A DNA stretch of 64,000 nt from an uncultured Ruminococcus sp. (GCA_902762505.1 CACWOQ010000007.1:1-64000); one strand, 5' to 3'. Counted from the stretch's first letter, positions 44,412 to 63,728 are shown. Made by a program: numbers and translations. The notes: a model not told the origin generated them from the sequence alone.

Positions 44412-44444
44412 ATCATTATATTCCCGTGTGTTATTACAGAACAT

Positions 44445-44473
44445 ATGATATCACAAATAACGTGGGTTGTCAA
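44445..44473 (-). promoter_or_regulatory. Promoter of the aspartate kinase operon
   Basis: TTGACA (44468-44473, minus strand), 17-bp spacer, TATCAT (44445-44450). Confidence 0.7.
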
Positions 44474-44557
44474 TGTATGATTTGAAGTTAGTTTTTGAAT
44501 TTTGAAGGACAATTCTTGTCAAATTGCAAAAAAAAGCCCGGATTTCACAAAATTCCG

Positions 44558-44586
44558 TTGACAAGGACATAAGACGGTGGTATTAT
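44558..44586 (+). promoter_or_regulatory. Promoter of the CotH-family lipoprotein gene
   Basis: TTGACA (44558-44563), 17-bp spacer, TATTAT (44581-44586). The predicted transcript start near 44593 precedes the chosen ATG at 44633. Confidence 0.7.
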
Positions 44587-44632
44587 TTATCTGTGACGTA
44601 TGACAGACAAATATGAATTGGAAGTTACCCGA

Positions 44633-46465: not shown

Positions 46466-46480
46466 GAGAGGGATCAAATC

Positions 46481-47674
46481 ATGGAAAGATTTGTTGGAAC
46501 GGTATCGAGAGGCGTAAGAGCCCCGATAATCAGAAAGGGTGACGATATAGCGCAGATCGTCGTTGACTCCGTGCTCGCCGCGGCGGAATCGGAGGGCTTC
46601 TCCCTTCGTGACCGCGACGTCATTGCGGTGACGGAGGCTGTCGTCGGACGCGCACAGGGCAACTACGCGACTACCGATCAGATAGCTAAGGACGTTGCCG
46701 CCAAATTCCCCGGCGGCGAGATAGGGCTCATATTCCCGATCCTTTCGCGCAACCGCTTTGCGATTTGTCTGCGCGGCATAGCGAAGGGCGTTAAAAAAAT
46801 AACGCTCATGCTCTCTTACCCCTCGGACGAGGTCGGCAACCACCTGTTCGACGACGAAACGCTCGACGAGGCTGACGTCGATCCTTACAGAGACGTGCTT
46901 GACGAGAAGAAATACAGAGAGCTTTTCGGATACGTGAAGCATCCGTTCACGGGCGTCGATTACGTGGAGTATTATAAACAGCTCATATCCGACTGCGGAT
47001 GCGATTGCGAGGTCATCTTCGCAAACGACTGCCGCGCGATACTCGATTATCAGAAGAACGTGATCAACTGCGATATACACACAAGACACAGAACGAAGAA
47101 AAAACTCGTTAAAGCCGGCGCCGAAAAGGTCGTCGGACTTGACGAGATACTCACCGCCCCGGTGGACGGCTCGGGATATAATGAGAATTACGGTCTGCTC
47201 GGCTCGAACAAAGCGACGGAGGACACGGTAAAGCTGTTCCCGCGCGACTGCATGCCGATAGTGCTGAACGTCCAGCGTCAGATACTTGAAAAGACCGGCA
47301 AGCACGTGGAGGTCATGGTCTACGGCGACGGCGCGTTCAAGGATCCCGTCGGAAAGATATGGGAACTGGCGGACCCGGTCGTTTCGCCCGCCTACACGCC
47401 CGGGCTTGAAGGTCAGCCGAACGAGGTCAAGCTGAAATACCTCGCGGACAACAACTTCGCTCACCTCAAGGGCGACGAGCTCAAAGCGGCTATCGCCGAT
47501 TACATAAGAAAAAAGGATTCCGACCTTGTCGGAAAGATGGTGTCCCAGGGAACGACGCCGCGCCGCCTCACGGACCTGATCGGTTCGCTCTGCGATCTCA
47601 CCTCCGGTTCCGGTGACAAGGGTACGCCGATAATCCTCGTACAGGGTTATTTCGACAATATGACGGCAGAATAA
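46481..47674 (+). CDS. CofE-like (coenzyme F420-0:L-glutamate ligase family) protein
   Basis: A 397-residue protein. The N-terminal block GDDIAQIVVDSVL with RDVIAVTEAVVGRAQGN (about 50) and the late blocks NVQRQILEKTGKHVEV and VMVYGDGAFKDPVGKIWE resemble the F420 gamma-glutamyl ligase fold. F420 itself is not expected in Clostridia, so this is likely the clostridial subfamily of unknown substrate, perhaps another glutamylation. No other cofactor gene is adjacent. It follows the CotH gene by 15 bp and ends at a strong terminator. Confidence 0.72.
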   Translation: MERFVGTVSRGVRAPIIRKGDDIAQIVVDSVLAAAESEGFSLRDRDVIAVTEAVVGRAQGNYATTDQIAKDVAAKFPGGEIGLIFPILSRNRFAICLRGIAKGVKKITLMLSYPSDEVGNHLFDDETLDEADVDPYRDVLDEKKYRELFGYVKHPFTGVDYVEYYKQLISDCGCDCEVIFANDCRAILDYQKNVINCDIHTRHRTKKKLVKAGAEKVVGLDEILTAPVDGSGYNENYGLLGSNKATEDTVKLFPRDCMPIVLNVQRQILEKTGKHVEVMVYGDGAFKDPVGKIWELADPVVSPAYTPGLEGQPNEVKLKYLADNNFAHLKGDELKAAIADYIRKKDSDLVGKMVSQGTTPRRLTDLIGSLCDLTSGSGDKGTPIILVQGYFDNMTAE

Positions 47675-47681
47675 AAAAACG

Positions 47682-47705
47682 CCTGCGAAGCTCTTGCTTC
47701 GCAGG
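47682..47705. terminator. Bidirectional intrinsic terminator
   Basis: CCTGCGAAG (47682-47690) pairs with CTTCGCAGG (47697-47705) across CTCTTG, flanked by A7 on the left and T6 on the right, between convergent genes. Confidence 0.85.
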
Positions 47706-47714
47706 TTTTTTACG

Positions 47715-48602
47715 TCAGTCTTTTCTGATCATCATCGAGCCGCCGCCGAATTTGATGAGCCCGTCCTCGCAGACAAGTTCGTCCCAGCTCGACTGCACTT
47801 CGCCGAAGACCTCTCTGTGCTGTTTCGTGTCGTAGTAATACTTGCCGTCCACGCACTTCCATTCCGTGCGCTGGGCGCAGAAATATCCGTCGCGTGCCGC
47901 GAGTATCTCGCCTGATTCCACGGCTTCCTTTATCATTTCATCCGACACGCCGGCGGGGATCTTCATCCATTGATCCACGGTGTGATCCGGAGTGAATTCC
48001 ACCTTTAAGGTGAAGGAATTGAGAGCACTGTCGTCGACGTCCTCACCCGCGGCTTTCTTTGCTTCAAGGTCGGCTTTGACCTCGGCTTCGGTGAAAAGGT
48101 CGAAATCACCGTTCACGAACGCAAGAGCTTTGACGACGGAGTACGTACCGACGATCTCGTCGCCCTCGCCGCCCTCGGCTTCTCCCACGTCCGCCGGCTC
48201 GGTAACGACGCCGTCGGACTCTTTTTTGAGCGCTATCGCAAGAAAACCTATGGCAAATACGAGATGCGTGCCCTCGGACACCTGTAATTTTTCAGCCGCG
48301 TCGCGGAAGGAGCCTTCCGGAAGATCGATGAAATCGCCGAGCTCGTATCTGTATTCGAACATATCGGTCTGATTCCACGTGCCCTTGAATTCGCTGCCTT
48401 TCGACGTGTCCGTGAGCGTCACCGTGCCGTCTTCGAAAAAGTCGAAGGTGAGCGCGGTGAAATCGGATCCGTCGTCACTTTTGAATTCCGCGGCGGGAAT
48501 GTGGGCAAGGTCGTCGGAGAGGCCGTTGACGATATAGTCGACGCGCCATTTGCCTACGATGAATTTTTTGCCTTTCAAAAGGTCTCTTTCATCAAGTTCC
48601 AT
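47715..48602 (-). CDS. Uncharacterised lipocalin-like protein, two-domain
   Basis: A 295-residue cytoplasmic protein. The first half begins KFIVGKWRVDYIVNGL and includes LTFDFFEDGTVTLTD and FKGTWNQTD, the beta-barrel start pattern of lipocalin-like DUFs. The second half (GDEIVGTYSVVKALAF, KVEFTPDHTVDQWMKIP, TEWKCVDGKYYYDTKQ) shows a related W/Y-rich pattern after an acidic linker (EGGEGDE), so it may be a duplicated domain. It lies 11 bp after an ABC ATPase gene and is expressed with it. Function unknown. Confidence 0.6.
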   Translation of the reverse strand: MELDERDLLKGKKFIVGKWRVDYIVNGLSDDLAHIPAAEFKSDDGSDFTALTFDFFEDGTVTLTDTSKGSEFKGTWNQTDMFEYRYELGDFIDLPEGSFRDAAEKLQVSEGTHLVFAIGFLAIALKKESDGVVTEPADVGEAEGGEGDEIVGTYSVVKALAFVNGDFDLFTEAEVKADLEAKKAAGEDVDDSALNSFTLKVEFTPDHTVDQWMKIPAGVSDEMIKEAVESGEILAARDGYFCAQRTEWKCVDGKYYYDTKQHREVFGEVQSSWDELVCEDGLIKFGGGSMMIRKD

Positions 48603-48613
48603 AATAATCCTCC

Positions 48614-49468
48614 TTATCTGTCAAAAACACGGATATATTCGTCCTCGAGCGTCGGGACCGCCGCTTCGGCGCCGTCGCACGGACACGTCTCGGATAAGAG
48701 CCTCATCCATACCTCCGAGCCCTCGCCCGAAATATTTATGACCTTGTATCTGTTCTGAAATTCCGCTACGCGGTCGGCGTCCGTTTTTACGGTCCATACC
48801 TGCCCTCTTGACTTTTCCGCAAGAGAGGAGGGCGAACCGGAGTCTATGACAACGCCTTTTTTCAGGAATATCGCCGTTTTTGCAATGTATTCAACGTCTG
48901 ATACGACGTGGGTGGCGATCAGAACTATCTTCTGCATGGATATGCGGGAGATGTAGTTTCTCATGGCGATGCGCTGCTTCGGATCGAGTCCCGCGGTAGG
49001 CTCGTCAAGAACGAGTATCTTCGGATCTCCGATAACCGCCTGCGCAAGAGCGAGACGCTGCTTCATACCGCCGGAGAACGTCGACGTGCGCTTTCTCCTC
49101 ACGTCGTCAAGCTCTACCTCGCGCAGGATATCGTCGATCTGAGCGGCGGGCGATTTGACACCCTTGAGCGCGGCAATGTAAAACAGATATTCCTCCGCCG
49201 TGAACTGCGGATATATCCCGGGATACTGCGGCATGTAGCCGAGAAGCTGTAAAAAGTTTCTCCCCATGTCGGATATATTAACGCCTTCATACGTGACGGA
49301 ACCCGAGTCGTACTTCAGATTGTCGGTTATTATGTTCATCAGCGTCGTCTTTCCGGATCCGTTCGGACCGAGAAGAGCGTAGATGCCCGGCGTGAAGGTC
49401 AGGGTCAGCCCCGACAACGCCTTGTTCTGTCCGTAGCTTTTACTGACGTCTTTAACAGTGAGCTCCAC
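48614..49468 (-). CDS. ABC transporter ATP-binding protein without an adjacent permease
   Basis: A 284-residue ATPase with GTG start and GGAGG ribosome-binding site. Walker A is LLGPNGSGKTTLMN, Q-loop YMPQYPGIYP, signature STFSGGMKQRLALAQA, Walker B ILVLDEPTAGLD and H-loop IATHVVSD. The C-terminal 60 residues (VWTKTDADRVAEFQNRYK-like) form the regulatory tail of the BcrA/Nat type. No membrane gene follows, only the lipocalin-like protein, so the permease must be elsewhere, or the protein has another role. Confidence 0.88.
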   Translation of the reverse strand: MELTVKDVSKSYGQNKALSGLTLTFTPGIYALLGPNGSGKTTLMNIITDNLKYDSGSVTYEGVNISDMGRNFLQLLGYMPQYPGIYPQFTAEEYLFYIAALKGVKSPAAQIDDILREVELDDVRRKRTSTFSGGMKQRLALAQAVIGDPKILVLDEPTAGLDPKQRIAMRNYISRISMQKIVLIATHVVSDVEYIAKTAIFLKKGVVIDSGSPSSLAEKSRGQVWTVKTDADRVAEFQNRYKVINISGEGSEVWMRLLSETCPCDGAEAAVPTLEDEYIRVFDR

Positions 49469-49501
49469 AGCGTAACCTCCGTATAATGTTTACTCAACTC
49501 A

Positions 49502-49530
49502 ATTATACCACACCGTTTTCCCGATTGCAA
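49502..49530 (-). promoter_or_regulatory. Promoter of the ABC ATPase operon
   Basis: TTGCAA (49525-49530, minus strand), 17-bp spacer, TATAAT (49502-49507), 34 bp upstream of the GTG start. Confidence 0.6.
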
Positions 49531-49648
49531 TACCATTTTAATTATTTTATCACCGTCAATGCGAAAAACATCTTATTTATAAGGCTAAAAAGTATGAAAA
49601 CGAACGGCTTTTTGTCAAATCCGCGTTTGTAAACATTCTGAAAAGTGC

Positions 49649-49677
49649 TTGCAATGCGTTTTTGCATATGTTATAAT
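49649..49677 (+). promoter_or_regulatory. Promoter of the small membrane protein/ATPase operon
   Basis: TTGCAA (49649-49654), 17-bp spacer, TATAAT (49672-49677). Confidence 0.6.
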
Positions 49678-49793
49678 CAGACCGGAGCAGATACGGCGTG
49701 CCGCTGCGCGCACGTCCGCCGGCGCCTGAGCCGATCCGGAAAGAGCGGATGAGAGCCGGGCGAGCTGATTTAAGGGAAAGATGAGGAGAACAA
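49678..49793 (+). other. GC-rich structured 5' leader
   Basis: About 110 nt between the -10 and the ATG, distinctly GC-rich against the AT-rich upstream DNA. It contains possible hairpins such as ATCCG/CGGAT around GAAAGAG near 49738 and several GC-rich CGC/GCG blocks at 49700-49730. I do not recognise a known riboswitch. The remaining intergenic part (49531-49648) is AT-rich and shows nothing else. Confidence 0.4.
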
Positions 49794-50015
49794 ATGAAAA
49801 CCGCGCTGCTTGTCATATTCATAATCTGCGTCAGCCTGTGTGTTCTGTCGTTTTTGCTGTCGATGTTTTTCCACAGAGGTTATTACAGTCTGCTCGACGG
49901 CAGCCATGAGCAGTACGCAAGGCTCCGCTGCCTGACGTACGTTTTTCTGATTTCCGGTATCGTTCTTGCGGTCATATCCGCCGTATGCCTTATCGCGCGC
50001 ATTAAGCTGACATGA
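49794..50015 (+). CDS. Small two-helix membrane protein
   Basis: A 73-residue protein with two hydrophobic helices (about 4-27 and 48-68) joined by a short polar loop (RGYYSLLDGSHEQYARLR). A GAGGAGA ribosome-binding site precedes the ATG. It overlaps the AAA ATPase start by 4 bp (ATGA), so the two are coupled. Family unknown; a membrane partner of the ATPase is possible but not shown. Confidence 0.65.
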   Translation: MKTALLVIFIICVSLCVLSFLLSMFFHRGYYSLLDGSHEQYARLRCLTYVFLISGIVLAVISAVCLIARIKLT

Positions 50016-50896
50016 TATACCTTACCGAGTTTTGTCTTCCGGGCGAAAAAAGAGAGACCGGATATAAGCTCGCCGGGAGCGCCGAGCTTAACTGGTCGTG
50101 CTATTCAGGCTCCGGATATCCGTTCGGCGTGTTCCCGCAGAAGCTTTTTGAACGTGTGACGTTTGATTCGTCCATTGTGATTTTCTGCGGCGAAAACGGG
50201 TCCGGAAAATCAACTCTGCTCAACGTGATAGCGGAAAAGCTCGGCATAAAACGTGTGACCGCGTTCAACAGATCGCCGAATTTCGGCAATTTTGTCTCAA
50301 TGTGCAGGGCGGAACTTTGCAAAGAACTGAGATCCGCGGAGATAATAACCAGCGACAGCGTGTTTGATTTTCTGCTCGACGTCCGCGCGTTGAACGACGG
50401 TCTGAGATCGAGCAAAGAAACCGTTTTTGAAGCGTACTGCGAGCAAAAAAGATTCCTTCGGACCGAAGGCTATACGATGAAAACGCTCGACGATTACGAC
50501 GAGCTGAAAAAGTATAATGAGATCCGCCGCACGTCGATGCCGGAATATGCGAGACGGCGCGTCGGAGCGGACGTTATAATGCATTCGAACGGCGAAAGCG
50601 CGCTCGATATATTCGAGAGGGCTATCGGTGAGAACGCGCTTTATCTGCTCGACGAGCCGGAAAACAGCCTGTCGGCGTCGCATCAAAGGGAGCTTGCGAA
50701 GTATATTTCCGATTCCGCGAGGTTTTACGGCTGCCAGTTTATTATATCGTCGCACTCCCCGTTTTTGCTTTCGCTTGAAGGGGCGGAAATATACGATCTC
50801 GACGCTCGCCCCGTTACGGTGAAAAAATGGACGGAGCTTGAATGCATCATGGAGTATGCAAGGCTATTCAGGGATGCCGACGCGGATGCGGACTGA
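50012..50896 (+). CDS. Stand-alone AAA/ABC-type ATPase
   Basis: A 294-residue ATPase. Walker A is IFCGENGSGKSTLLN (about 58-72), a signature-like stretch sits at HSNGESALDIFE, and Walker B is ALYLLDEPENSLSA (about 208), followed by the H-switch QFIISSHSPFLLSLEG. The fold is the AAA_21/AAA_23 (OLD- or SMC-like) type found as free cytoplasmic proteins. Some relatives act in defence systems with nucleases, but no nuclease gene is present here. It is the last intact ordinary gene before the Rhs cassette array. Confidence 0.82.
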   Translation: MIYLTEFCLPGEKRETGYKLAGSAELNWSCYSGSGYPFGVFPQKLFERVTFDSSIVIFCGENGSGKSTLLNVIAEKLGIKRVTAFNRSPNFGNFVSMCRAELCKELRSAEIITSDSVFDFLLDVRALNDGLRSSKETVFEAYCEQKRFLRTEGYTMKTLDDYDELKKYNEIRRTSMPEYARRRVGADVIMHSNGESALDIFERAIGENALYLLDEPENSLSASHQRELAKYISDSARFYGCQFIISSHSPFLLSLEGAEIYDLDARPVTVKKWTELECIMEYARLFRDADADAD

Positions 50897-50904
50897 TACT
50901 GCGG

Positions 50905-51022
50905 GAGAAATGAAGGCGATCCGTATCCGTTCAGTGATTATTCGGATCGTGCTTTCAACCACGGCGGATCCGGAAAATTTACGCAAGCTTATGACAGCAT
51001 TAATAGTTTTGTAACAGCGTAA
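50905..51022 (+). pseudogene. Remnant end of an Rhs tip or older cassette
   Basis: In the frame of the following Rhs core the DNA reads GDPYPFSDYSDRAFNHGG then SGKFTQAYDSINSFVTA and a TAA at 51020-51022. It has no start codon and no upstream core, so it looks like the tail of a displaced Rhs C-terminus left at the left edge of the array. Weak, as it is very short. Confidence 0.35.
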
Positions 51023-51130
51023 GAGTATTATGATAACGGAGAGTTTACCGTAAGCGTTCAAAATGACGGCGAAATAACGAAAACCGCAGAAAGATCTGCG
51101 TATAACGGCGTATCCATAACGTATGACGCT

Positions 51131-52306
51131 ATGGGTAATCCGCTGAACTACAACAACGGCAGTAGTTATACCTTCACATGGAAGAACGGGCGAGAGCTTG
51201 CAACGCTTTCGACCGGTACAACAAGCGTAACGTATAACTACAACGCAGACAGCGTAAGGATCAAAAAGACCGTCAACGGCGTTGTTCACGAATACGTTGT
51301 TGACGGCTACAAGATACTTGAAGAAAAATACGGTACGACCGTACTGAAATTCACCTACGATGAGAACGACGCCCCGCAGAGCATATCCGTCAACGGTACG
51401 GTTTACTATTACGGAAAGAATCTTCAGGGTGACATTGTAAAGATTTACGATTCAAACGGTAATTCAGTCGCCGGATATTCGTATGACGCGTGGGGAAACA
51501 TACTCTCAATCACATATACAAGCATTTACGGAGCATCTGTAAGCGGCCTCAACCCGTTCAGGTATCGTGGCTATTACTACGACACCGAATCCGGACTTTA
51601 CTACCTTAACAGCAGATATTATGATGCTAAGGTGGAGAGGTTTATTAATGCAGATGATCCTGAGTTCCTTGGAGCTACAGGAACAAACTTGAGTTACAAT
51701 ACATTTCTATATTGCGACAACTCTCCTATTTCTTTAATTGATTACACTGGAAACGCTCCATATTTAGGATGGGGCATTCAACTGGAAGGCTCTTTTATGG
51801 GGATCATTGTTGGAATCGAGTTGATATGGTATGATAGCATAGCAAAGCCATATTACGGAAATCGAAAACTACCGTGTATATATATTTATGGTGGATTCGG
51901 TATAAATGTAAAAAGTGGTAATATATGGAATATAAAAAGCTTGATTACTTTTGTTAAAGATGAATCTTTAAGGGCTTTTGGATCAGCAAGTAAAGCAGCT
52001 TGGAAAATAGGAGGAGGACTCAGTATATGTGCCTTCCGGGTGTATGGAATTATTAAAACGCCATATGATTACAAAGGACCGTTTATATCAATTGGAGCGA
52101 CGCTGTGGCACATTAAAGCATATTACTCTCAATCACCATCAAGAGATGTGTTTTCGGTAGGAATTGGAATAAGCTCAAGTAAGTTTGGATTTAGTCCTTT
52201 ATCAGGTACCTACTATACACTAATTCCTTTTAATTGGGTGATTACAATTGCCGACATGTTTAGTTCTTTGTTTGGCAGAATGAAGACTATTTCCAATATG
52301 GCATAG
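51131..52306 (+). CDS. Rhs repeat core fragment with AT-rich C-terminal tip (candidate toxin)
   Basis: The open frame actually extends back to 51023 without a proper start; 51131 is the first ATG and has no clear ribosome-binding site. Residues 1-175 are YD-repeat and Rhs core sequence (TYNYNADSVRIKKTVNG, YYGKNLQGDIVKIYDSNG, AGYSYDAWGNILSIT) ending in the hallmark NPFRYRGYYYDTESGLYYLNSRYYD. The conserved part stops near 51650. The remaining 220 residues are AT-rich, unrelated to the core, Gly/Ile-rich and include GIIVGIELIWYD and FSVGIGISSSKFGF. The tip is unassigned. Missing N-terminal repeats mean this is a detached cassette, not a full Rhs protein. Confidence 0.75.
   Translation: MGNPLNYNNGSSYTFTWKNGRELATLSTGTTSVTYNYNADSVRIKKTVNGVVHEYVVDGYKILEEKYGTTVLKFTYDENDAPQSISVNGTVYYYGKNLQGDIVKIYDSNGNSVAGYSYDAWGNILSITYTSIYGASVSGLNPFRYRGYYYDTESGLYYLNSRYYDAKVERFINADDPEFLGATGTNLSYNTFLYCDNSPISLIDYTGNAPYLGWGIQLEGSFMGIIVGIELIWYDSIAKPYYGNRKLPCIYIYGGFGINVKSGNIWNIKSLITFVKDESLRAFGSASKAAWKIGGGLSICAFRVYGIIKTPYDYKGPFISIGATLWHIKAYYSQSPSRDVFSVGIGISSSKFGFSPLSGTYYTLIPFNWVITIADMFSSLFGRMKTISNMA
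51155..51650 (+). repeat. Rhs core direct repeat, copy A
   Basis: 496 bp that recur almost base for base at 52910-53405 with offset 1755. Differences are scattered and mostly at third codon positions. Part of the same core (75 bp) recurs a third time at 54745. Recombination between such copies is how Rhs tips are exchanged. Confidence 0.85.
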
Positions 52307-52315
52307 GGCAAAACA

Positions 52316-52810
52316 ATGGAACGAGTTGTTTATGAATTTGGATATAATATCCATTTTGTTGATTTCATTCCTGTTGTTTTTGGAATTATTATAAGCACAT
52401 TGTTGTTAGTTCTTACAAGTAGTTTAAAAAAACACCAACGATACTTAATTCGTATTGTTGTAGTTGTGGTAATGGCACTGGTTATTCTTGTTGTTTTTAT
52501 AATTCCTATAACTCACTATTATAGCATTAAGGATGGCAATACAACTAATATTCAATGTACACAAGGATATCTAGTGTACATAAGCAGATCGTCAACCTAT
52601 TACTGGAACCATGGTAGTGATACATTCATAATTGGTGATGTTTGTTTCTATGTAAGCGGCGATGAGAAATATGGTTACTGTAAATTATATAATGATGATA
52701 AGGCGATACTCAAGGAAGGGCAATTATATAAAGTTGACTATTTCTTCGATAAATTAAGATCGTATTACATTATATACAGAATTATTGCTGTTGAACAAAA
52801 TGTTAATTAG
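52316..52810 (+). CDS. Candidate membrane immunity protein for Rhs tip A
   Basis: A 164-residue AT-rich gene starting 9 bp after the Rhs tip. Two hydrophobic segments (about 16-36 and 43-66, with VVVVVMALVILVVF) are followed by a soluble, probably extracytoplasmic domain with tyrosine-rich strands (GYLVYISRSSTYYW, YYIIYRIIA). Position directly after a toxin tip is the normal site of an immunity gene; the membrane topology suggests the tip acts at the envelope. No family recognised. Confidence 0.6.
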   Translation: MERVVYEFGYNIHFVDFIPVVFGIIISTLLLVLTSSLKKHQRYLIRIVVVVVMALVILVVFIIPITHYYSIKDGNTTNIQCTQGYLVYISRSSTYYWNHGSDTFIIGDVCFYVSGDEKYGYCKLYNDDKAILKEGQLYKVDYFFDKLRSYYIIYRIIAVEQNVN

Positions 52811-52882
52811 GTCATGGATCGGATGTGGATTGGTACTGAATTGAGTAAGAGGTTAAAACATGATACCATATGCATCAGATGA

Positions 52883-53494
52883 GAAAACGAGGCTTCGCGA
52901 AACTGCAGTAACAGCAGCAGCTATACATTTACATGGAAGAACGGACGCGAGCTTGCAACGCTTTCGACCGGTACAACAAGCGTAACGTATAACTACAACG
53001 CAGACGGTGTAAGGATCAAAAAGACCGTCAACGGTGTCGTTCACGAATACGTTGTTGACGGTTACAAGATACTTGAGGAAAAGTACGGAAGTACCGTTCT
53101 GAAATTCACCTACGATGAGAACGACGCCCCGCAGAGCATATCCGTCAACGGTACGGTTTACTATTACGGCAAGAACCTTCAAGGTGATATCGTAAAGATA
53201 TATGACGCAAACGGCAACGCGATCGCCGGATATACGTATGACGCGTGGGGAAACATACTCTCGATCACCTATACAAGCATTTACGGAGCATCTGTAAGCA
53301 GCCTCAATCCGTTCAGGTATCGTGGATATTATTACGATACCGAATCCGGACTCTACTACCATAACAGCAGATATTATGATGCTAAGGTGGGGAGGTTTAT
53401 AAATGAAGACGAATACTACGTGTTTGACATAGATTACAAGAGTTTTGAAAACAATTTATATACATATTGTTATAATAATCCTGTGAAATTATGA
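52883..53494 (+). pseudogene. Second Rhs core fragment with truncated tip
   Basis: Open from after a TGA at 52880 to TGA at 53492-53494 but with no start codon at the front. It encodes YTFTWKNGRELATLSTG through PFRYRGYYYDTESGLYYHNS and RFINEDEYYVFDIDYKSF, ending NNLYTYCYNNPVKL. In intact proteins the NNPV block leads into the tip; here the frame ends at once and stops abound downstream, so the tip is lost. It lies between the tip-A immunity candidate and a lipoprotein gene. Confidence 0.8.
52910..53405 (+). repeat. Rhs core direct repeat, copy B
   Basis: Partner of copy A at 51155-51650, same length, strand and frame. The left limit falls close to a stop codon in unrelated sequence, consistent with a recombination endpoint. 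Confidence 0.85.
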
Positions 53495-53580
53495 TGCTAT
53501 GGAATTTTAATAGTATAACAAATATATTAATAAAGGTCAAAATGGGAAACGGCATTGGAGATTATATATTATAACATAAC

Positions 53581-54147
53581 ATGGAGATAAAAAAAGTTAT
53601 TATAGTTTTTATAGTCGTATGTGTAATACTTATATTAAGCTGTTGTTCATCTAAGAGCACTATATTTTCTCATACTACAACCATTGATGGAGCTGAAAAC
53701 TACTATGAATTTTGGGAGTTTGAAAATGTTAATGGATTACACTGTACTAATCATTTTAACAACCAAATTCCATGCAAAGCTTTTCCATCTGAACTAACTG
53801 ATGCATCAATTATTTCTGCTGAATTCATCAGGAACGAAGCGTTTGCCATGAGCGATTCTTATAGAATTATTGTTGAAGTGGAGTTCGATAGCGAAAATAT
53901 TAATTCAGAAAAGAAAAGACTATGTGATCTCGGTGCAACTATTGATAATAACACTTTTAGTAAAGAAGCATATATCACAATATGGAATTATGATGGGCTG
54001 TTTGAATATGTTCTGTTTGATGCCAATGTTGCGACATATGTTTATTTGCGATACTACTCTTCCGAAGTTAATGAAACCTATCTTCCAGAAAACTATCCCA
54101 ATGTTGACGGATCGTTTTGTATTGAAGCTTATCACAGTCTTAAATAA
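53581..54147 (+). CDS. AT-rich lipoprotein, candidate immunity or cargo of the second Rhs cassette
   Basis: A 188-residue protein with a lipoprotein signal (hydrophobic run IIVFIVVCVILIL ending in the lipobox LSCC) and a soluble domain with no recognised motif (YYEFWEFENVNGLHC, YRIIVEVEFDSEN, EAYITIWNYDGLFEY). The DNA is far more AT-rich than the chromosome around it. Its location after a truncated Rhs core suggests a former immunity gene; outer-surface lipidation would fit protection from an extracellular toxin. The ATG has no clear ribosome-binding site. Confidence 0.6.
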   Translation: MEIKKVIIVFIVVCVILILSCCSSKSTIFSHTTTIDGAENYYEFWEFENVNGLHCTNHFNNQIPCKAFPSELTDASIISAEFIRNEAFAMSDSYRIIVEVEFDSENINSEKKRLCDLGATIDNNTFSKEAYITIWNYDGLFEYVLFDANVATYVYLRYYSSEVNETYLPENYPNVDGSFCIEAYHSLK

Positions 54148-54264
54148 AACTATTGCAAACGACTCAAGCAAATACGAATTGACAGAGTAAGAATTGTTTA
54201 TTTATTACACATATTCGGTATCATCATATCATCGATATTAAGTCATAGAAGAATCTTTCAAATA

Positions 54265-54723
54265 ATGTTTAAGATAAATAAAACGCCCAAAACAATCGCG
54301 TTGATTAACAAATATTCCGGATATATTTCTCAGTCTGTCATATATATAGTATCCACGCTGTCAACAGTTTGGGGTAAACACACTACGGGAACTTTTGTCA
54401 TTATTGAATGCCTCATCCTTACAGTATTATTAATTCTCACTCTTAGCGTTATAATCGTAACGATAACATTGATTTTGTTTCACAAAATTGAGGATGACGA
54501 TAAATATGACAGAAACGCCGCACCCGCTGATTTTTGGACCATACTTTACAGGTTCTCTGCAATAATAATACCGCTATACATCTGGTTTGTTTTTGTCAGA
54601 AGCGGTGTTGACAATAATGCTCCATATGTACTAATTTGGTTATTGCAGTGGGCAGTGCTGTTTAACTCGTTTTTTTACAACGCTTTTTTGAAGCAATATA
54701 CAGGTAAAAACGATCATAAATGA
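54265..54723 (+). CDS. AT-rich four-helix membrane protein in the Rhs array
   Basis: A 152-residue protein with about four hydrophobic segments (roughly 20-36, 42-72, 94-112 and 118-138). No family recognised. It sits between the lipoprotein and the third Rhs core scrap, in foreign AT-rich DNA, so it may be another orphan immunity protein. Only its composition and position support this. Confidence 0.55.
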   Translation: MFKINKTPKTIALINKYSGYISQSVIYIVSTLSTVWGKHTTGTFVIIECLILTVLLILTLSVIIVTITLILFHKIEDDDKYDRNAAPADFWTILYRFSAIIIPLYIWFVFVRSGVDNNAPYVLIWLLQWAVLFNSFFYNAFLKQYTGKNDHK

Positions 54724-54744
54724 CAATTTTCGCACGAACTGTGA

Positions 54745-54819
54745 ATCAAAAAGACCGTCAACGGCGTCGTTCACGAATACGTTGTTGACGGGTACAAGAT
54801 ACTTAAAGAGAATTACGGC
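54745..54819 (+). repeat. Third Rhs core scrap
   Basis: 75 bp matching the core segment around IKKTVNGVVHEYVVDGYKIL with a few changes, fused at its right end to the phosphatase gene. Its AAAGAG now lies where the ribosome-binding site of the gene at 54822 is needed. Confidence 0.75.
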
Positions 54820-54821
54820 AT

Positions 54822-55448
54822 ATGAGATTTTATATTTTAAGACACGGAGAGACGGCGCTTAACGCGAAGCGCGTGATGCAGGGCAGGCTTGACGAACCGC
54901 TTTCCGCAAAAGGAGTTGAACTGGCAAAGGTCACCGGAAGGGCGATGAAGGATATCAAGTTCGACCGCTGTATATCAAGCCCGCTCAGAAGAGCGTCGCA
55001 GACCGCCGGATTGATCCTGCGGGAGAGCGGAAACGCTTTGACGATCGAATACGACGACAGACTGTCCGAGATCGATTTCGGCGCGCTGGAAGGAAAAAGC
55101 CTCGCCGAAATGGGCGATGCCGGAAAGCTGTTTCTTTCCGATCCGTTCGCGTGCCCGGGATTTCCCGGCGGCGAGAGCGTGGCGGACGTCTGCCGGCGTA
55201 CGCAGAGCCTTCTGCGTGAGCTGATCGGCAAGGACGACGGAAAAACGTACCTTCTGAGCACTCACGGCTGCGCCGCAAGGGCGATCGTCAATTTTCTTTT
55301 CCCGGATCCGGAGGATTTCTGGCGCGGACACGTGCCGTATAACTGCTCGTTTACCGTCGTTGAAGCGGAAAAGGGAACTGCAAGGCTGATCGATCTCGAC
55401 CGCGTATATTATGACAGAGGTCTTGCGGTCGACCGGTATTCAGTTTGA
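54822..55448 (+). CDS. Histidine phosphatase (phosphoglycerate mutase-like) family protein
   Basis: A 208-residue protein with the RHG motif FYILRHGETALNAKR, the CISSPLRRASQTA phosphate pocket and the second histidine in LLSTHGCAARAIV. Members dephosphorylate small metabolites such as alpha-ribazole phosphate or sugars; the substrate is unknown. Codon usage and GC return to chromosomal type here, so it marks the right border of the Rhs array. The presumed ribosome-binding site is inside the Rhs scrap, meaning array rearrangement may have altered its translation. Confidence 0.87.
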   Translation: MRFYILRHGETALNAKRVMQGRLDEPLSAKGVELAKVTGRAMKDIKFDRCISSPLRRASQTAGLILRESGNALTIEYDDRLSEIDFGALEGKSLAEMGDAGKLFLSDPFACPGFPGGESVADVCRRTQSLLRELIGKDDGKTYLLSTHGCAARAIVNFLFPDPEDFWRGHVPYNCSFTVVEAEKGTARLIDLDRVYYDRGLAVDRYSV

Positions 55449-55555
55449 ATATACGAAATCACAAAAATGAAATATTCCGCCTGACGGCAACGTTAAATAA
55501 CGCGGCGCCGCCGCAAAGTGAAACATGATCCGCCCGCCGGGTGGATCACGCCGGA

Positions 55556-55583
55556 AAAAAAGCACGCTTTCGCGTGCTTTTTT
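55556..55583. terminator. Bidirectional intrinsic terminator
   Basis: Stem AAAAAAGCACGC with GCGTGCTTTTTT across a TTTC loop (55556-55567 with 55572-55583). It ends immediately at the tRNA-like sequence that follows. Confidence 0.85.
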
Positions 55584-55605
55584 GGCGGAGAAGGAGAGAT
55601 TCGAA
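55583..55605 (-). other. tRNA 3'-end-like sequence, possible attachment site
   Basis: On the minus strand the 23 nt begin with the T-loop TTCGAAT, continue CTCTC and end CTTCTCCGCCA with an encoded CCA. This matches the 3' third of a tRNA, most like a serine tRNA whose acceptor would start GGAGAAG. The rest of the tRNA is absent: the sequence 5' of the T-loop cannot form the T-stem. Such 3'-end duplicates are typical attachment sites left by integrases. No integrase is in the window. Confidence 0.5.
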
Positions 55606-55716
55606 ACTGCACTATATATAGTGTCCGAATCGCAGGAATTCGGTGCTTTTCACACTATATATAGAACAGGGTTCAATCGGGTCTATTTTTTATAAAAAAC
55701 CGGGTCAAATCTCTCC
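55593..55716. repeat. Short element with 12-bp inverted ends and internal palindromes
   Basis: GGAGAGATTCGA (55593-55604) is repeated inverted, with one mismatch, as TCAAATCTCTCC (55705-55716). Between them are a perfect 14-bp palindrome CACTATATATAGTG (55610-55623), its 12-bp echo CACTATATATAG (55653-55664), a small hairpin (55625-55643) and a TTTTTTATAAAAAA stretch. The 124-bp unit could be a mobile hairpin element or structured RNA; otherwise the 55449-55725 gap holds only the terminator. Confidence 0.45.
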
Positions 55717-55725
55717 GCTTCAAAT

Positions 55726-56769
55726 TCACCTTTTTATCAAACCGTACCGGGCGAGAACAAGCTCGGTTATATATTTGCCTCTGACCTTCATTCCGAGCCT
55801 TGATATGACGTCCGATACAAGCGTTTCGTCAAGCGACGGAATATATTTTCTGTATTCCGGATAAGCGTCCGTAAGCTCGTTGAACAGCTTTATAAGCAGG
55901 TCGCTCTTCTTCGGTAACGAAGGGTATCCGCGCGCTATCAGCGCCATGTTGTTGTCGTAATTCGGAGCAAGTCCGAGCAGCTCTCCGGTCTTTGTGTCAC
56001 GCATAAGTCCGAAATTGTTCGTGTGTCTGTCCGGGTTCGCGGTGACCGTGTCCATAAATATAAGTCTTATATAATCGGGTATCGCCGACGGGCAAATCAT
56101 ACGCAGCGCTTCGACTACGGAAACATAATCCTCGTCGTCTCCCATAAACGACGACGCCGGCTCGAAATTCACGCTTGCGCCGTTTGTGAAATCAAGCGAT
56201 TTTATACATCCGTTTCCGCGCTCGTACAGCGCCATATTCATTCCGAGAGCGCGTCCGAGCTCGCTTATGAACAGCTCAGAGAACATCTCGTCGTGACTCG
56301 CGCGCTTGTAAAGCCACCATTTTCCGTCGCGCAGCTTCCAGCATTTTTCGAAGCTTCCGGTGTTCGTAAGCTCCGGCGTTTTGCTGCGCCCGCTCGACGC
56401 CGCTCTGTTAAAGCTGTTGTAAGTGCCTTTAAGCGCAAGGGATGAGAAATAGTCGTCGGAGAAGTCAATATCGCCGTACGTCAGAGCCGAGCCGATATCG
56501 CGTATCCAGTAGTTGTCAGTTATCGTTGCCGCGTTCACGTGGACGACGGTCGAAATGTCGTCCTTTTCCGTCAGCCGCAGAGCCTTCTTCAGTAACCGGG
56601 AGTTGGCGCGGTGACTGTCAATCGCCCGGGATTTCAGCCACAGGTCGGCGTTTGACAAGCGCTTCAGAAAAAGAGGGAGCAGGGCTTCATTGCAAACGGT
56701 GAGAGCTCCGTTATTCCACACGGCGACAACGGTATCGCCGCTCAGTATCTCATAATTATGTTTATCCAC
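55726..56769 (-). CDS. HipA-like serine/threonine kinase, no HipB partner
   Basis: A 347-residue protein resembling the HipA C-terminal kinase lobe. Visible are ITDNYWIRDIGS, an ATP-binding stretch WWLYKRASHDEMFSELFISEL, the catalytic loop TVTANPDRHTNNFGLMRD and LGLAPNYDNNMAL in place of DFG. The usual N-terminal HipA domain is reduced to about 80 residues. GTG start with GGGAGG at the right distance. No HipB-type helix-turn-helix gene is adjacent on either side, so it may be an orphan kinase or belong to the surrounding island rather than a toxin-antitoxin pair. Confidence 0.85.
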   Translation of the reverse strand: MDKHNYEILSGDTVVAVWNNGALTVCNEALLPLFLKRLSNADLWLKSRAIDSHRANSRLLKKALRLTEKDDISTVVHVNAATITDNYWIRDIGSALTYGDIDFSDDYFSSLALKGTYNSFNRAASSGRSKTPELTNTGSFEKCWKLRDGKWWLYKRASHDEMFSELFISELGRALGMNMALYERGNGCIKSLDFTNGASVNFEPASSFMGDDEDYVSVVEALRMICPSAIPDYIRLIFMDTVTANPDRHTNNFGLMRDTKTGELLGLAPNYDNNMALIARGYPSLPKKSDLLIKLFNELTDAYPEYRKYIPSLDETLVSDVISRLGMKVRGKYITELVLARYGLIKR

Positions 56770-56880
56770 AACAACGCCTCCCTTCTTGTGTTTTAATTAT
56801 ACTATCATATTTTTCAACAAAAGTCAAGCGAAATTTATCCGACCGTAAAAATCGGAATTTCTGTCATAATAAAAACAAGG

Positions 56881-57063
56881 CGGGGACAGCCGGGCTCCGG
56901 CGGCATGTGCGCGTTTCGTCCCTTTCGCGCCGTGCCGGCCGTTATTGCGTTTCGTCCCTTTCGCGATAATCCGGCAGCCCGCCCCGCTGATATAAAATAC
57001 AGCCCGGCGATTACGGCGGGCTGCTTTTTGTGTCTGTGTCGCGGCAGAGAGCTTGTATTACAG
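56881..57063 (+). repeat. 185-bp direct repeat, left copy
   Basis: Nearly identical to 57793-57978. Each copy contains two 19-mers GCGTTTCGTCCCTTTCGCG (56911-56929, 56947-56965), then a terminator-type hairpin and the last codons of the gene (here pseudogene) that reads leftward. The repeat thus covers the 3' end and downstream region of a duplicated gene. The stretch 56770-56880 left of it shows only a -10-like TATAAT for the HipA gene. Confidence 0.85.
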
Positions 57064-57275
57064 ACGATTGGTTTTCCTCTCCGGGTTTTTACTGTAAAGA
57101 TTCCGAAAGGACTTGATTAGTTTTCACATTGCATCGGATGATGTGTTAAACAAACTCATCGCATCGTCGAGCGTTATTTCATCCGTCACAATCATACTAT
57201 AAATGCTAGTAAGCTCTATGCATGAAGTTTCTTTGCTCTATCTACGGATACGTAGATATCGTAGCACTTCCGCTC
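57058..57275 (-). pseudogene. Degenerate C-terminal copy of the 57973 gene
   Basis: Read leftward it still gives SIYSMIVTDEITLDDAMSLF and KLIKSFRNLYSKNPE, matching SIYSMLVTDEITLDEAAKIL and ELIKSFRGLYSKDPY of the intact gene at 57973. It contains at least two in-frame stops, a frameshift, and lacks the first two thirds. Together with the 185-bp repeat it shows a tandem duplication followed by decay, with the zinc-ribbon gene now in the middle. Confidence 0.85.
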
Positions 57276-57567
57276 ATACCAATAGATTTAAATCAGGAAA
57301 CGAGAAAGGGGTTTTGCAATACTTGCATATTACTGCTTCAACACCTGTATTCACAGTGTTTTTCGCGTTGCAGTATGGGCAAATTACTTCTTTAGTCTCG
57401 ATATTTCTTGTGAATGAATTCAATCTGTATATCTTTTCTTTAGGTGACAATCTGGTGTTACAAAACACACACTCTTTTAATGAACTGCTAAACCGAGCGA
57501 CATTTACACCGTTGCAACTTTTGCATATATAAAGATAATTCGCCTCTGGTTCGTAATTATTCTGCAT
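57274..57567 (-). CDS. Small zinc-ribbon protein
   Basis: A 97-residue protein with four C-x2-C pairs: CKSC, CVFC, CPYC and CKYC, forming two zinc ribbons joined by SPKEKIYRLNSFTRN. No catalytic domain. It starts with a good GGAGG ribosome-binding site and has its own promoter. Zinc ribbons of this sort bind nucleic acid or mediate protein contacts. Its AT-rich composition and position between duplicated halves suggest later insertion. Confidence 0.7.
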   Translation of the reverse strand: MQNNYEPEANYLYICKSCNGVNVARFSSSLKECVFCNTRLSPKEKIYRLNSFTRNIETKEVICPYCNAKNTVNTGVEAVICKYCKTPFSFPDLNLLV

Positions 57568-57594
57568 AGCGTTAACTACCTCCTTGCTAATCTT

Positions 57595-57622
57595 ATTATA
57601 GCATATATTTTATGAAAGTCAA
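57595..57622 (-). promoter_or_regulatory. Promoter of the zinc-ribbon gene
   Basis: TTGACT (57617-57622, minus strand), 16-bp spacer, TATAAT (57595-57600), 28 bp ahead of the ATG. Confidence 0.6.
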
Positions 57623-57736
57623 GGGGTGGTGTTACAATCAAATAAATGTTCCAGACGTTCCTCTTATTAAAATCATCATGCAGTATCTCATGTATTATGG
57701 CATTCTTTTAACCGTTATTATCTGACATCTTAAGTG

Positions 57737-57761
57737 GATAACTGGTTTCAAACCAGTTATC
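57737..57761. repeat. Perfect 12-bp inverted repeat
   Basis: GATAACTGGTTT, one base C, then AAACCAGTTATC. It is not followed by a T-run on either strand. It lies in the gap between the zinc-ribbon promoter and the right 185-bp repeat and could be a protein-binding site or a DNA scar. The rest of 57623-57736 shows nothing I can name. Confidence 0.5.
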
Positions 57762-57792
57762 TCGACAAGACACCCGTCGATGCTCTTCGTGA

Positions 57793-57978
57793 CGGGGACA
57801 GCCGGGCTCCGGCGGCGTGTGCGCGTTTCGTCCCTTTCGCGCCGTGCCGGCCGTTATTGCGTTTCGTCCCTTTTGCGATAATCCGGCAGCCCGCCCCGCT
57901 GATATAAAAATACAGCCCGTCGATTACGGCGGGCTGCTTTTTGTGTCTGTGTCGCGGCATAGAGCTTGTGTGTTACAG
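57793..57978 (+). repeat. 185-bp direct repeat, right copy
   Basis: Partner of 56881-57063 with the same internal 19-mers (57823-57841 and, with one change, 57859-57877) and the same hairpin. It joins the intact gene at 57973. Confidence 0.85.
57905..57936 (-). terminator. Terminator of the ClpX-like operon
   Basis: On the minus strand CAGCCCGCCG pairs with CGACGGGCTG (arms 57927-57936 and 57913-57922, one G-U pair), followed by TATTTTTAT. It lies 37 bp after the 57973 stop. Confidence 0.7.
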
Positions 57979-58566
57979 CTGTTTTATCTGTTTATACGGG
58001 TCCTTGCTGTACAGACCTCTGAACGACTTGATAAGCTCTCTTACGGTTTCCGGGGTTGTGTAAAGAATTTTCGCCGCTTCGTCGAGCGTTATCTCGTCCG
58101 TCACGAGCATGCTGTATATGGTTGCGAGCTCCATACAGGATACCTCTTTTGCGTGACCGGCGGAAATGCGTATGTCACAGCACCTCCGCATAATCCCGAA
58201 TGAGTTTGACAGAATCGATTGAATGATGTTTTCTATCGTATCGATATCTTTCCCGATAAAGACGTCGGCTATGACGTCCGATATGAGGTCCAGGATATGA
58301 TTGGCGACGGCGTTTGCGTACGCCCCTGCTTTCATGTCAGCGTACTGATAATCGCAAGTCTGCTGACATATATGTAGATTTACGTCGTAGTATATCTGCT
58401 CCTTGTATGTGGCGAGATACTCGCCGAGCGTCCTTGCAAAACGCTCCGCGTCTCCCCGCGCCTTCGCCCGTGCTGCGTCGGGCGTCACGCCCTTCTCCAG
58501 CAGCTGTTCAAGCCTCCGCAGCCTGAACCTCTCTTCCGCTTTCTTTACACTCCGATTCTTCTTCAT
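57973..58566 (-). CDS. Unrecognised helical partner protein of the ClpX-like ATPase
   Basis: A 197-residue protein. It has a basic N-terminal third (KKNRSVKKAEERFRLRRLEQ, then ARAKARGDAERFARTLGEYL), a helical middle with clustered cysteines (HICQQTCDYQY; RRCCDIRI), and a C-terminal helix-turn-helix-like part (VTDEITLDEAAKILYTTPETVRELIKSF). The start at 58566 has GGAGGAA; a longer in-frame reading is rejected. It overlaps the ClpX-like gene by 59 bp, in a different frame, so the two are surely co-expressed. Duplicated as a pseudogene at 57058. No family recognised; substrate adaptor or DNA-binding subunit are both open. Confidence 0.7.
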   Translation of the reverse strand: MKKNRSVKKAEERFRLRRLEQLLEKGVTPDAARAKARGDAERFARTLGEYLATYKEQIYYDVNLHICQQTCDYQYADMKAGAYANAVANHILDLISDVIADVFIGKDIDTIENIIQSILSNSFGIMRRCCDIRISAGHAKEVSCMELATIYSMLVTDEITLDEAAKILYTTPETVRELIKSFRGLYSKDPYKQIKQL

Positions 58567-59944
58567 CAGTGTGTTCCTCCTTTGTTTTTTGTTTTTTATC
58601 AGCACTTTCAAGAAGGCTGTATAAGACCCCTTCAAAGTATCTGTCAAATATGGTTTTCAGCCCTCTGGCGCCTATTCCCTCCGCGTAAGCCTCGGCGCAG
58701 AGCGTACGTACGAAGTTGTCCGGTATCTTCACGTTTTCTCCGAACACGGAAAGAGTCTTTTCGTATCCGGACAGAATATCGTCCTCAGCCGTTACAATCG
58801 CGTAAAGGTCGGAAACGGAGAGCGGACGGAGCCGGACTATCGTCGTAAATCTCCCGGCAAGTTCTTTTATCATCCCGTATCGGATTAAATCCGTATGGGA
58901 TATTTCGTCGGTATCCTCAATCATCCCGGACGGACTTAAAAAGCCGACCGGATTTTTCCTGTCGGTTTCCTCTATGCTCTTTATCCCGAAGGCGCCTCCG
59001 GCGATAAACAGTATGTTGTCCGTTTTAATCCGGTGCTTTCCGCGGGAGCGCAGGTCTATCGTTATCTCCTCACCTTCGATAAGAGTCAGAAGAGACGTCT
59101 GGTCCGCCGTCTTATATTCGTGCCCCTGGGAGCCGTTCGTAAATATGCACATCTTGTCTATCTCGTCAAGATACACGATTCCGCGCTCCGCCAAATCCAC
59201 GTCGTAATTTGCTTTTTCAAGCAGGTCGGCTATAACGTCTGACGCGTCGCGCCCCTTGTATCCCGACGCCGTGATTTTAGTCGTGTCGGCAATGACAAAG
59301 GGAACGTTCAATACCTTTGATATCACTCTGACCATCTCGGTCTTGCCGCATCCCGTGGGACCGGTCATAATGATATTGGATTTGCTCAATCCGAGCTCCG
59401 GCTGCTCAATACGCAATAAGTGTCTGATGACGCCGACAATCAGGGATTGCTTGGCTTCCTCCTGCCCGTATATGCTTTTATCAAGCGCAGCTTTCAGCCG
59501 TCCGTAAGTATCGACGATATCATGATTAAGACCGGGCTCGTATACGCGCAGGCTTTTGTCAGACCCGCACTTCAGCTCGACCGTGATAATCGGCTCCGCG
59601 CTCTGATACAGCTTTACAAACAGCTTACGGCCGTCCTCTCCGTTTATGTAATCCTTCAGGTCGTCCTCTTCGTCAAATTTGATTTCTTTGCTTACAGCGT
59701 CCGTGAAGTCGTCTTCCGCGGAAAGCCTGTACACGTCATTCAGCGTAAACCGCTTGCCGTATCCTCGGCATATCATCACCCAACCGGTGATGTATATCTG
59801 AAGACATAAAGTGTCGTCAACGGGCTCATCGGTTACGGATTCAAGCTCCGCGGAGATAAGCTTCCCGACCACAGCCGGCGTGTAAAAGCTGTTCACCAGT
59901 TCAAACAAAGGCGTCACAACCGCCTGTTTCAGATTTTCAAACAT
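58508..59944 (-). CDS. ClpX-like AAA+ ATPase with novel N-terminal domain
   Basis: A 478-residue AAA+ protein. Residues 150-450 match ClpX: Walker A GPTGCGKTE (195-203), Walker B VYLDEIDKM (257-265), sensor DNILFIAGGAFG, GMIKELAGRFTTIVRLRPL with the arginine finger, and sensor-2 GARGLKTIFDRYFE. VGF at 333-335 sits where ClpX carries its ClpP-docking IGF loop. The ClpX zinc-binding N-domain is absent, replaced by about 145 residues (KLISAELESVTDEP, YITGWVMICRGYGKRF) I do not recognise. The C-terminus is Glu/Lys-rich. No clpP is in the window. Probably an unfoldase of an accessory system. Confidence 0.82.
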   Translation of the reverse strand: MFENLKQAVVTPLFELVNSFYTPAVVGKLISAELESVTDEPVDDTLCLQIYITGWVMICRGYGKRFTLNDVYRLSAEDDFTDAVSKEIKFDEEDDLKDYINGEDGRKLFVKLYQSAEPIITVELKCGSDKSLRVYEPGLNHDIVDTYGRLKAALDKSIYGQEEAKQSLIVGVIRHLLRIEQPELGLSKSNIIMTGPTGCGKTEMVRVISKVLNVPFVIADTTKITASGYKGRDASDVIADLLEKANYDVDLAERGIVYLDEIDKMCIFTNGSQGHEYKTADQTSLLTLIEGEEITIDLRSRGKHRIKTDNILFIAGGAFGIKSIEETDRKNPVGFLSPSGMIEDTDEISHTDLIRYGMIKELAGRFTTIVRLRPLSVSDLYAIVTAEDDILSGYEKTLSVFGENVKIPDNFVRTLCAEAYAEGIGARGLKTIFDRYFEGVLYSLLESADKKQKTKEEHTDEEESECKESGREVQAAEA

Positions 59945-60008
59945 TCACCGTGTCTCCTTTTATCTTGCGTTCGGTATTATAATGACAGAACCGATACGCC
60001 GATAAAAA

Positions 60009-60043
60009 GAAAAATCCCGATGCACATCGCAAAGGGATTTTTC
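60009..60043. terminator. Intrinsic terminator
   Basis: GAAAAATCCC (60009-60018) pairs with GGGATTTTTC (60034-60043), with an inner GATG/CATC stem, just after the stop of the leftward gene at 60056. Confidence 0.75.
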
Positions 60044-60055
60044 GTATGTACGTTA

Positions 60056-60493
60056 TTACAGTTCTTTACCCGCTTTCACATATTCGATGAACTCATTCAT
60101 TGTTTTGAAGTTTGCATATACCATGTTAACATCATAAAGAGCGCCATCGATTTCGAAAGCACAGGGACCAAACGTGAGATTTACGCTTTTTTCCTCAGAC
60201 GTTTCCCATACTTCAAAACTGGTCATGGCAAAATAGCGGTCAATCATACCGGATATGCAATCAGGTACGGTATACGTTTTTAAATATATTAGTATGACTT
60301 TATATTGTTCGGAAGTTGTGTGAAAGTAAAAATCGAATTCAGCGTCAGTAATCCCAACGGCCTCAAGACAGGCTTTTAATGTGTTTTCTCCATTTGCGAA
60401 CATATCGGCCGCTCGCTGTAACTTCTTTTCCAAGTCCCGTCTGCAATAGAGTTCGGCGTCGTCGATGCTTGCGATTCTTGATTGTGTATACAT
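60056..60493 (-). CDS. Uncharacterised protein, 145 residues
   Basis: Acidic cytoplasmic protein. The N-terminus MYTQSRIASIDDAELYCRRD and ENTLKACLEAVGITDAEF look helical; the second half has YFAMTSFEVWETSEEKSVN and FEIDGALYDVNMVYANFKT. No recognised domain, weak ribosome-binding site. It lies between the ClpX-like operon and hsdR on the opposite strand from hsdR. Confidence 0.55.
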   Translation of the reverse strand: MYTQSRIASIDDAELYCRRDLEKKLQRAADMFANGENTLKACLEAVGITDAEFDFYFHTTSEQYKVILIYLKTYTVPDCISGMIDRYFAMTSFEVWETSEEKSVNLTFGPCAFEIDGALYDVNMVYANFKTMNEFIEYVKAGKEL

Positions 60494-60749
60494 ATTTCTT
60501 ACCTGCCCGGTTCGGTCCGGAACGTCGTTGCGTTTTCCCTAAAAGTTATACCTACCGGGCACCCTTTGATTGTATTATGACAGAAATTTTCAGATTTCCG
60601 GGCAATCCTCGCAGGATTTACATATAATTCACAAATGCGGATTTCGACACCGGTTTCAGCAACTGATTCTTTCGTAAAGACGGTTGAGCAAGACCGGTAT
60701 TGTAGTTTGGTACTCTTAGTAAAAATACGCCAAAACACATATGCGCATC
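60494..60749. other. Intergenic stretch before hsdR
   Basis: No gene is seen. It contains no clear promoter for the leftward gene at 60493 and no tRNA or repeat that I recognise. The hsdR promoter starts at its right end (60750). Confidence 0.5.
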
Positions 60750-60778
60750 TTGACAAACCGAGCTTTTTGCGTTATATT
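60750..60778 (+). promoter_or_regulatory. hsdR promoter
   Basis: TTGACA (60750-60755), 17-bp spacer, TATATT (60773-60778), 40 bp before the hsdR ATG. Confidence 0.7.
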
Positions 60779-60817
60779 TATAATAACAATAAACAGCTCA
60801 CGACAGGAGGATATGTC

Positions 60818-63715: not shown

Positions 63716-63728
63716 GAGAAGGTATAAA

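Follow-up and report, generated by a model that had tools for sequence, protein, structure and literature searches.

Probable orphan Rhs modules in a variably present islet of an uncultured Ruminococcus genome

Background

Orphan Rhs and CdiA-CT/CdiI modules consist of a core-end fragment, a tip and an immunity gene, arranged serially and without translation or export signals (Poole 2011, PMC3150448; Koskiniemi 2014, PMC3967940). Toxicity has been demonstrated for orphan tips of CdiA-CT and Rhs, and function for the immunity genes that go with them (PMC3150448), and an orphan tip can be reloaded onto the main gene by recombination (PMC3967940). Among Gram-positives, truncated duplications of rhs/wapA in Streptococcus suis join a truncated core to a different tip-immunity pair, and a truncated wapA module was not delivered (PMC12704120). 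Listeria LrhA is paired with LrhI, a membrane immunity protein whose globular part lies outside the cell and which has orphan copies in other genomes; the envelope target of LrhA was inferred from that externally placed domain (PMC10327511). Salmonella Typhi has a variably present T6SS/CDI immunity islet, proposed to hold mostly orphan immunity genes that give passive protection (PMC7400221).

The locus described here has features in common with each of these. It lies in the window, the 64,000-nucleotide stretch of an uncultured Ruminococcus sp. that was analysed, and is a 3.9-kb foreign stretch in a gut-type Bacillota genome, made up of Rhs core fragments, one tip with its adjoining gene, and a lipoprotein gene.

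Extent and setting of the islet

The islet has an ATPase gene on its left and a phosphoglycerate-mutase-type gene on its right (Table 1). In the nearest relative, G008, these two genes are about 27 bp apart and the site is empty, so the islet is variably present. The flanking proteins of the two genomes are 90% (ATPase) and 80% (mutase type) identical, and the flanking DNA 84.5% and 83.4%. DNA matches to G008 end at 50920 and begin again at 54820, so the islet is taken to span about 50921–54819. G008 is the only informative comparison, since the ATPase and mutase genes are on different contigs in the other members of the genus in which both were found; with an empty site in one relative only, gain in the window genome and precise loss in G008 are not formally separated.

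The accessory genes of the islet have 30–36% G+C and the cores 45%, against 52.6% for the window, in keeping with the AT-rich genes that a preliminary description had placed between the core copies. No clear target-site duplication was found at the islet edges (a few shared bases only), there is no tRNA gene in 44000–64000 and no Rfam RNA in 49000–58500, and a promoter scan stayed at chance level. Outside the islet, a repeat of ca. 180 bp occurs at 56881–57056 and 57793–57969 (97–98% identical, 912 bp apart), and an imperfect inverted repeat around CACTATATATAG lies at 55598–55678, in the intergenic space downstream of the mutase gene.

Table 1. Features of the islet and its flanks (window coordinates)
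Feature	Coordinates	Strand	Basis
Left flank, AAA/ABC-type ATPase gene, outside islet	50012–50896	+	Pfam AAA_15/AAA_21; 90% identical protein in G008
Islet left edge, short open remnant of unknown origin, stop at end	50921–51022	+	Translation; similarity to G008 DNA stops at 50920
Rhs core fragment 1, single open frame with tip	51023–51754	+	TIGR03696, 66 bits
C-terminal tip, 183 aa, candidate antibacterial toxin	51755–52306	+	Homologous tips in L113, L115, L114, L138, L070, L112, L139
Cognate immunity candidate of 164 aa with two membrane helices; C-terminal domain predicted to be extracellular	52316–52810	+	Same architecture after main-branch tips; profile score; topology
Rhs core fragment 2 (homology from 52901)	52883–53491	+	TIGR03696, 59 bits; translation ends NNPVKL*
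AT-rich stub where a tip would have been, in the gap between core 2 and lipoprotein gene	53495–53580	+	Position; 24% G+C for 53413–53580
Lipoprotein, 188 aa, orphan immunity candidate	53581–54147	+	Relatives in 12 family genomes; one in an Rhs array
Unassigned membrane protein of 152 aa, possibly another orphan immunity protein	54265–54723	+	Two strong hydrophobic segments
Rhs core scrap 3, islet right edge	54745–54818	+	93% identity to core 1
Right flank, phosphoglycerate-mutase/histidine-phosphatase family gene, outside islet	54822–55448	+	NCBIfam family matches; adjoins ATPase gene in G008

Rhs core fragments

A 530-bp query from core 1 matched itself (51131–51660), 52901–53412 at 90% DNA identity (E 3e-203) and a 74-bp scrap (93%, E 3e-25), all on the same strand; this is the repeated core and scrap of the preliminary description. 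A gap of 3 bp separates the scrap from the mutase gene. Both larger cores pass the RHS_assc_core model TIGR03696, whose cut-off is 32.5 bits.

Fragmented genomes are known to be misassembled at repeats, and the two cores could in principle be assembly duplicates of a single locus. This reading is rejected: of 510 aligned sites, 49 differ between the cores (35.5 synonymous and 13.5 nonsynonymous differences; dS 0.43, dN 0.034, dN/dS 0.08), and the DNA on both sides differs between the copies. As the divergence bears the mark of purifying selection, both cores derive from working Rhs genes. Their dS is close to that of the flanking ATPase gene between the window and G008 (0.45).

The core ends are all that was found of an Rhs gene. 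In the assembly (2.64 Mb, 102 contigs, 89.7% complete), a TIGR03696 profile search gave two matches, both in the islet, and a protein search with the core gave only cores 1 and 2 and scrap 3. No full-length Rhs gene was found in the window, as had been described, nor was the complete gene that was to be looked for elsewhere found in the assembled genome. A long YD-repeat shell with an N-terminal export or delivery region was likewise not found in islet or assembly, and no N-terminal Rhs part at the islet site. Because the assembly is incomplete, the absence is not final, and a full-length gene may lie in DNA missing from it.

The islet might be the tail of an ordinary Rhs locus with a main gene followed by orphans, the main gene having been deleted or lying in unassembled DNA. 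Besides the incomplete assembly, this reading has in its favour that a full-length Rhs parent is followed by truncated cassettes in three other genomes: G224 (L143/L076), G531 (L138) and G350 (L122). The site is empty in G008, however, and since both islet edges adjoin chromosomal genes on an unbroken contig, there is no main Rhs gene at the site now; an origin as such a tail is rather unlikely. Separately, the G224 locus (L076 and L143, contig C10) was seen to have a full-length Rhs gene with an open frame of 2178 codons, followed by at least seven consecutive truncated core-tip cassettes.

The tip and its family

Core 1 and the tip share one frame, open from 51023 to 52306 (427 codons). The preliminary description had set a tip of 220 residues at 51650–52306; the tip itself stands, but its start is moved to about 51755, after the core-end motif, which leaves 183 aa. 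That motif reads DYTG in the window and DPNG, DPTG, DPEG or DPDG in the relatives, so that the window departs from the DPxG form. As in other orphan modules, the core-tip frame has neither a translation start nor an export signal: it lacks a start codon preceded by a clear ribosome site, and its first in-frame ATG, at 51131, lies inside the core with nothing resembling such a site before it.

Relatives of the tip were searched for in 395 genomes of the family with a two-tip alignment as query, and in 394 genomes of the order with a six-tip alignment. Three are from the same taxonomic family: L113 (G367), L115 (G315) and L114 (G122, a fragment). Two genomes outside it also have relatives, L138 (G531) and L139 (G549), and a divergent branch consists of L070 (G234) and L112 (G163, a fragment). 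With ca. 40 aa of the core end included, the window tip matches L113 with E 6e-16, L115 with 1e-14 and L070 with 2e-9; comparison of the tips only gives E 2e-4 for L070. The L138 tip, from a different family, scores 82 bits. L139 is cut by a contig end; 92 bp of it are 77% identical in DNA to the beginning of the window tip, which suggests that tip DNA has been transferred between taxonomic families. Among all Rhs tips collected, these form a separate group, with at least 83 bits against 6.6 for the next. By sequence comparison, the tip family is coherent and recurs in several other genomes.

Three further candidates were rejected – L135 and L136 matched weakly and lie in surroundings without an Rhs cassette, and L137 matched weakly within a region (L140) without a core match. 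Viral contigs held no relative of the core-tip protein, and plasmids held no match to the L113 tip and only matches covering less than 80% of the query to the core-tip protein of the window. A scan of genome contigs gave one relative of the core and none of the tip.

No catalytic motif or known toxin domain was recognised in the tip in Pfam, NCBIfam or PDB profile searches; the PDB search gave nothing meaningful, and structure models built from single sequences were too poor to be informative (mean pLDDT 32 and 53). The proteins encoded at 52316, 53581 and 54265 and the tip had no match above cut-off in Pfam, NCBIfam or PADLOC searches, which agrees with the earlier remark that the first two and the tip were unfamiliar.

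The adjoining candidate immunity gene

The truncated core is joined to the tip, and the candidate immunity gene at 52316 begins 9 bp after the tip ends, the order expected of a module. Directly downstream of the L113, L115, L114 and L138 tips are genes for proteins of 160–195 aa in which two membrane helices at the N-terminus likewise precede a C-terminal domain. In a sample of 30 cassettes with a readable next gene, such a gene follows four of four main-branch tips (window, L113, L115, L138) and 2 of 26 other cassettes (Fisher p 5e-4), the architecture tested having been framed after the first pairs were seen, and L138, which fits, having been found later. At the level of sequence the similarity is weak. 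Against a profile built from the other immunity proteins, the score of the 52316 protein is 12.8 bits, which exceeds 1000 of 1000 composition-preserving shuffles; the best pairwise E is 0.018 and the hhalign probability 13%.

The tip could also be a non-toxic structural domain, and the membrane protein downstream unrelated to it. The failure to recognise a catalytic motif or toxin domain would fit, but the tip occupies the polymorphic position behind an Rhs core, and in four further genomes, from two taxonomic families, an immunity-like gene regularly accompanies it, so that a structural role is improbable. Since the same gene architecture follows the tip of every readable main-branch relative, the tip and the 52316 protein are very probably a toxin-immunity pair, as far as sequence comparison can tell.

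In most proteins of the 52316 family the positive charge is found mainly between the two helices, a distribution that would put the C-terminal domain on the outer side of the membrane. From this topology only, the tip may be supposed to act on the envelope. In the divergent branch the next gene is different and encodes a single-helix membrane protein of 211–228 aa.

Lone members of the 52316 family, with no Rhs tip seen beside them, are found in G234 and G069; loci noted for such lone genes are L120 (6326–6808) and L117 (6086–6586). A link to the gene at L070:8917–9411 was dropped, with no BLASTP support and a weak profile match (E 0.029). So was assignment to DUF3592 (PF12158): L114 alone matched, with E 0.0086 and 17.2 bits against a gathering cut-off of 25.3, and the window protein had no match.

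The second cassette

The core-2 frame stops right after the core end, and no tip remains. Because the tip is gone, the lipoprotein gene at 53581 is an orphan, probably an orphan immunity gene; an immunity function for it is plausible. Twelve other genomes of the family have relatives of this lipoprotein. One of these (L122 7221–7769, G350) is inside an Rhs array, right after a tip candidate of ca. 100 aa and between core remnants; the relatives in G264 and G328 sit away from Rhs genes. For the 54265 protein, no relative was found in the loci searched and no Pfam or NCBIfam match above cut-off. It had been described as having four helices; a simple hydropathy scan gives two strong hydrophobic segments and does not bear out four. 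The islet has one immunity candidate without a tip (53581) and one still with its tip (52316), and the 54265 gene is unassigned. The earlier view of a decayed Rhs array holds insofar as the cassette remnants have different tips and immunity candidates, with the correction that the second cassette is now tipless.

Related islets in other genomes

G008, empty at this site, has broken Rhs cores of its own (C8:8324–10737), with AT-rich ORFs, between two chromosomal genes. A 180-aa ORF of that islet has a counterpart on contig C52 of the window genome, close to the contig end, with 97% DNA identity across 618 bp. The C52 copy is preceded by an 86-aa ORF, of which the G008 copy retains the last few dozen bases, joined straight to Rhs core sequence. 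Between the two copies dS is 0.08, against 0.45 for the flank gene, which makes this a recent exchange of an orphan immunity-type gene; dN/dS is ca. 0.16 on few changes.

Several arrangements were noted in passing. In G008, L066 8080–11650 (on C8) is a broken Rhs islet with unrelated chromosomal genes on either side; it has three core fragments, and two of its AT-rich ORFs are lipoprotein-like. In the window genome, L158 6287–8260 (C52 ca. 16286–18259) is a second AT-rich cluster, of two small membrane proteins, the 86-aa ORF and the 180-aa protein. In the long array at L070 5281–13322 (G234 C69), three core fragments occur along with genes for many small membrane proteins, and the divergent tip branch has its different immunity type.

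Discussion

The islet is best explained, with a probability of roughly 0.78, as an acquired set of orphan Rhs modules that likely gives passive protection and may store spare tips. It comprises at least two C-terminal modules (core end, tip and immunity gene) severed from the long Rhs genes that delivered them. The first is complete, with a 183-aa tip and, directly downstream, its very probably cognate two-helix membrane immunity protein; the second has lost its tip and kept the lipoprotein gene as probable immunity gene, and a third is reduced to a core scrap. The tip is not deliverable from the islet, which lacks a signal sequence, a full Rhs shell and a good translation start, and the most likely role of the islet is therefore passive protection against neighbours with matching Rhs toxins, together with the storing of tips. 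Recombination at the core could reload stored tips onto a full Rhs gene. What the sequences show directly is where the islet ends relative to G008, that the cores are homologous, that tip and immunity families occur together and that the second tip is lost; the tip is taken to be toxic and to act on the envelope, the immunity genes to be expressed and immunity to be selected for. Repeated tip replacement, the origin first suggested, is not borne out for this site: Rhs remnants are there as described, but the islet is absent in G008 and has no N-terminal Rhs part.

The most serious rival is that a chunk of a donor Rhs array arrived by chance and is decaying without function. It shares the main reading's view of the nature of the islet and departs from it over whether the islet does anything; it is a real possibility, if somewhat less than an even one. 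Core 2 is tipless and core 3 a scrap, there are no convincing promoters or ribosome sites, and the core-end motif of the tip is altered, all as inert debris would be. Against this, the three accessory ORFs and the 427-codon core-tip frame are all still open, lone 52316-family members persist in other genomes, and the genus exchanges an orphan immunity-type gene at 97% DNA identity, the preceding ORF being trimmed meanwhile (dN/dS again from few changes).

A broader proposal is more doubtful than not, and is offered tentatively. The tips may be a new family of Rhs toxins acting on the envelope or membrane, with two branches neutralised by two unrelated membrane immunity proteins (the two-helix type with a C-terminal domain and the single-helix type); bacteria of the genus would be gathering the immunity genes in islets trimmed of toxins and remote from any Rhs gene that could deliver one. 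If the tip is toxic, it and its partner would be an uncatalogued toxin-immunity family from uncultured Bacillota, whose target would probably be extracellular or in the membrane. With two types of immunity protein for a single tip family, it would become possible to test how immunity specificity arises. The genus is also a case in which orphan immunity-type genes move between species and shed toxin parts, which bears on whether such modules serve as protection or as toxin spares.

The kind of arrangement, that of orphan Rhs/CDI modules, is already well known; the tip and immunity families are absent from Pfam and NCBIfam, so the earlier suggestion of a family new to the catalogues stands, with the pair recurring in other genomes. 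The islet differs from the described orphan modules (PMC3150448, PMC3967940) in having no full-length parent upstream or in the assembly, and one of its modules is toxinless; it is thus away from the usual, though not obligatory, place downstream of a full-length parent. The S. suis copies, unlike it, follow a full-length wapA gene, and two tips of S. suis strain K56-WJ are nuclease-like by structure, a likeness that was not found for the islet tip (PMC12704120). Compared by architecture, Listeria LrhI has one N-terminal helix and 261 aa, and the 52316 protein two helices and 164 aa (PMC10327511). The immunity islet of Salmonella Typhi (PMC7400221) consists of different genes, and here an apparently intact tip has been kept with its immunity gene.
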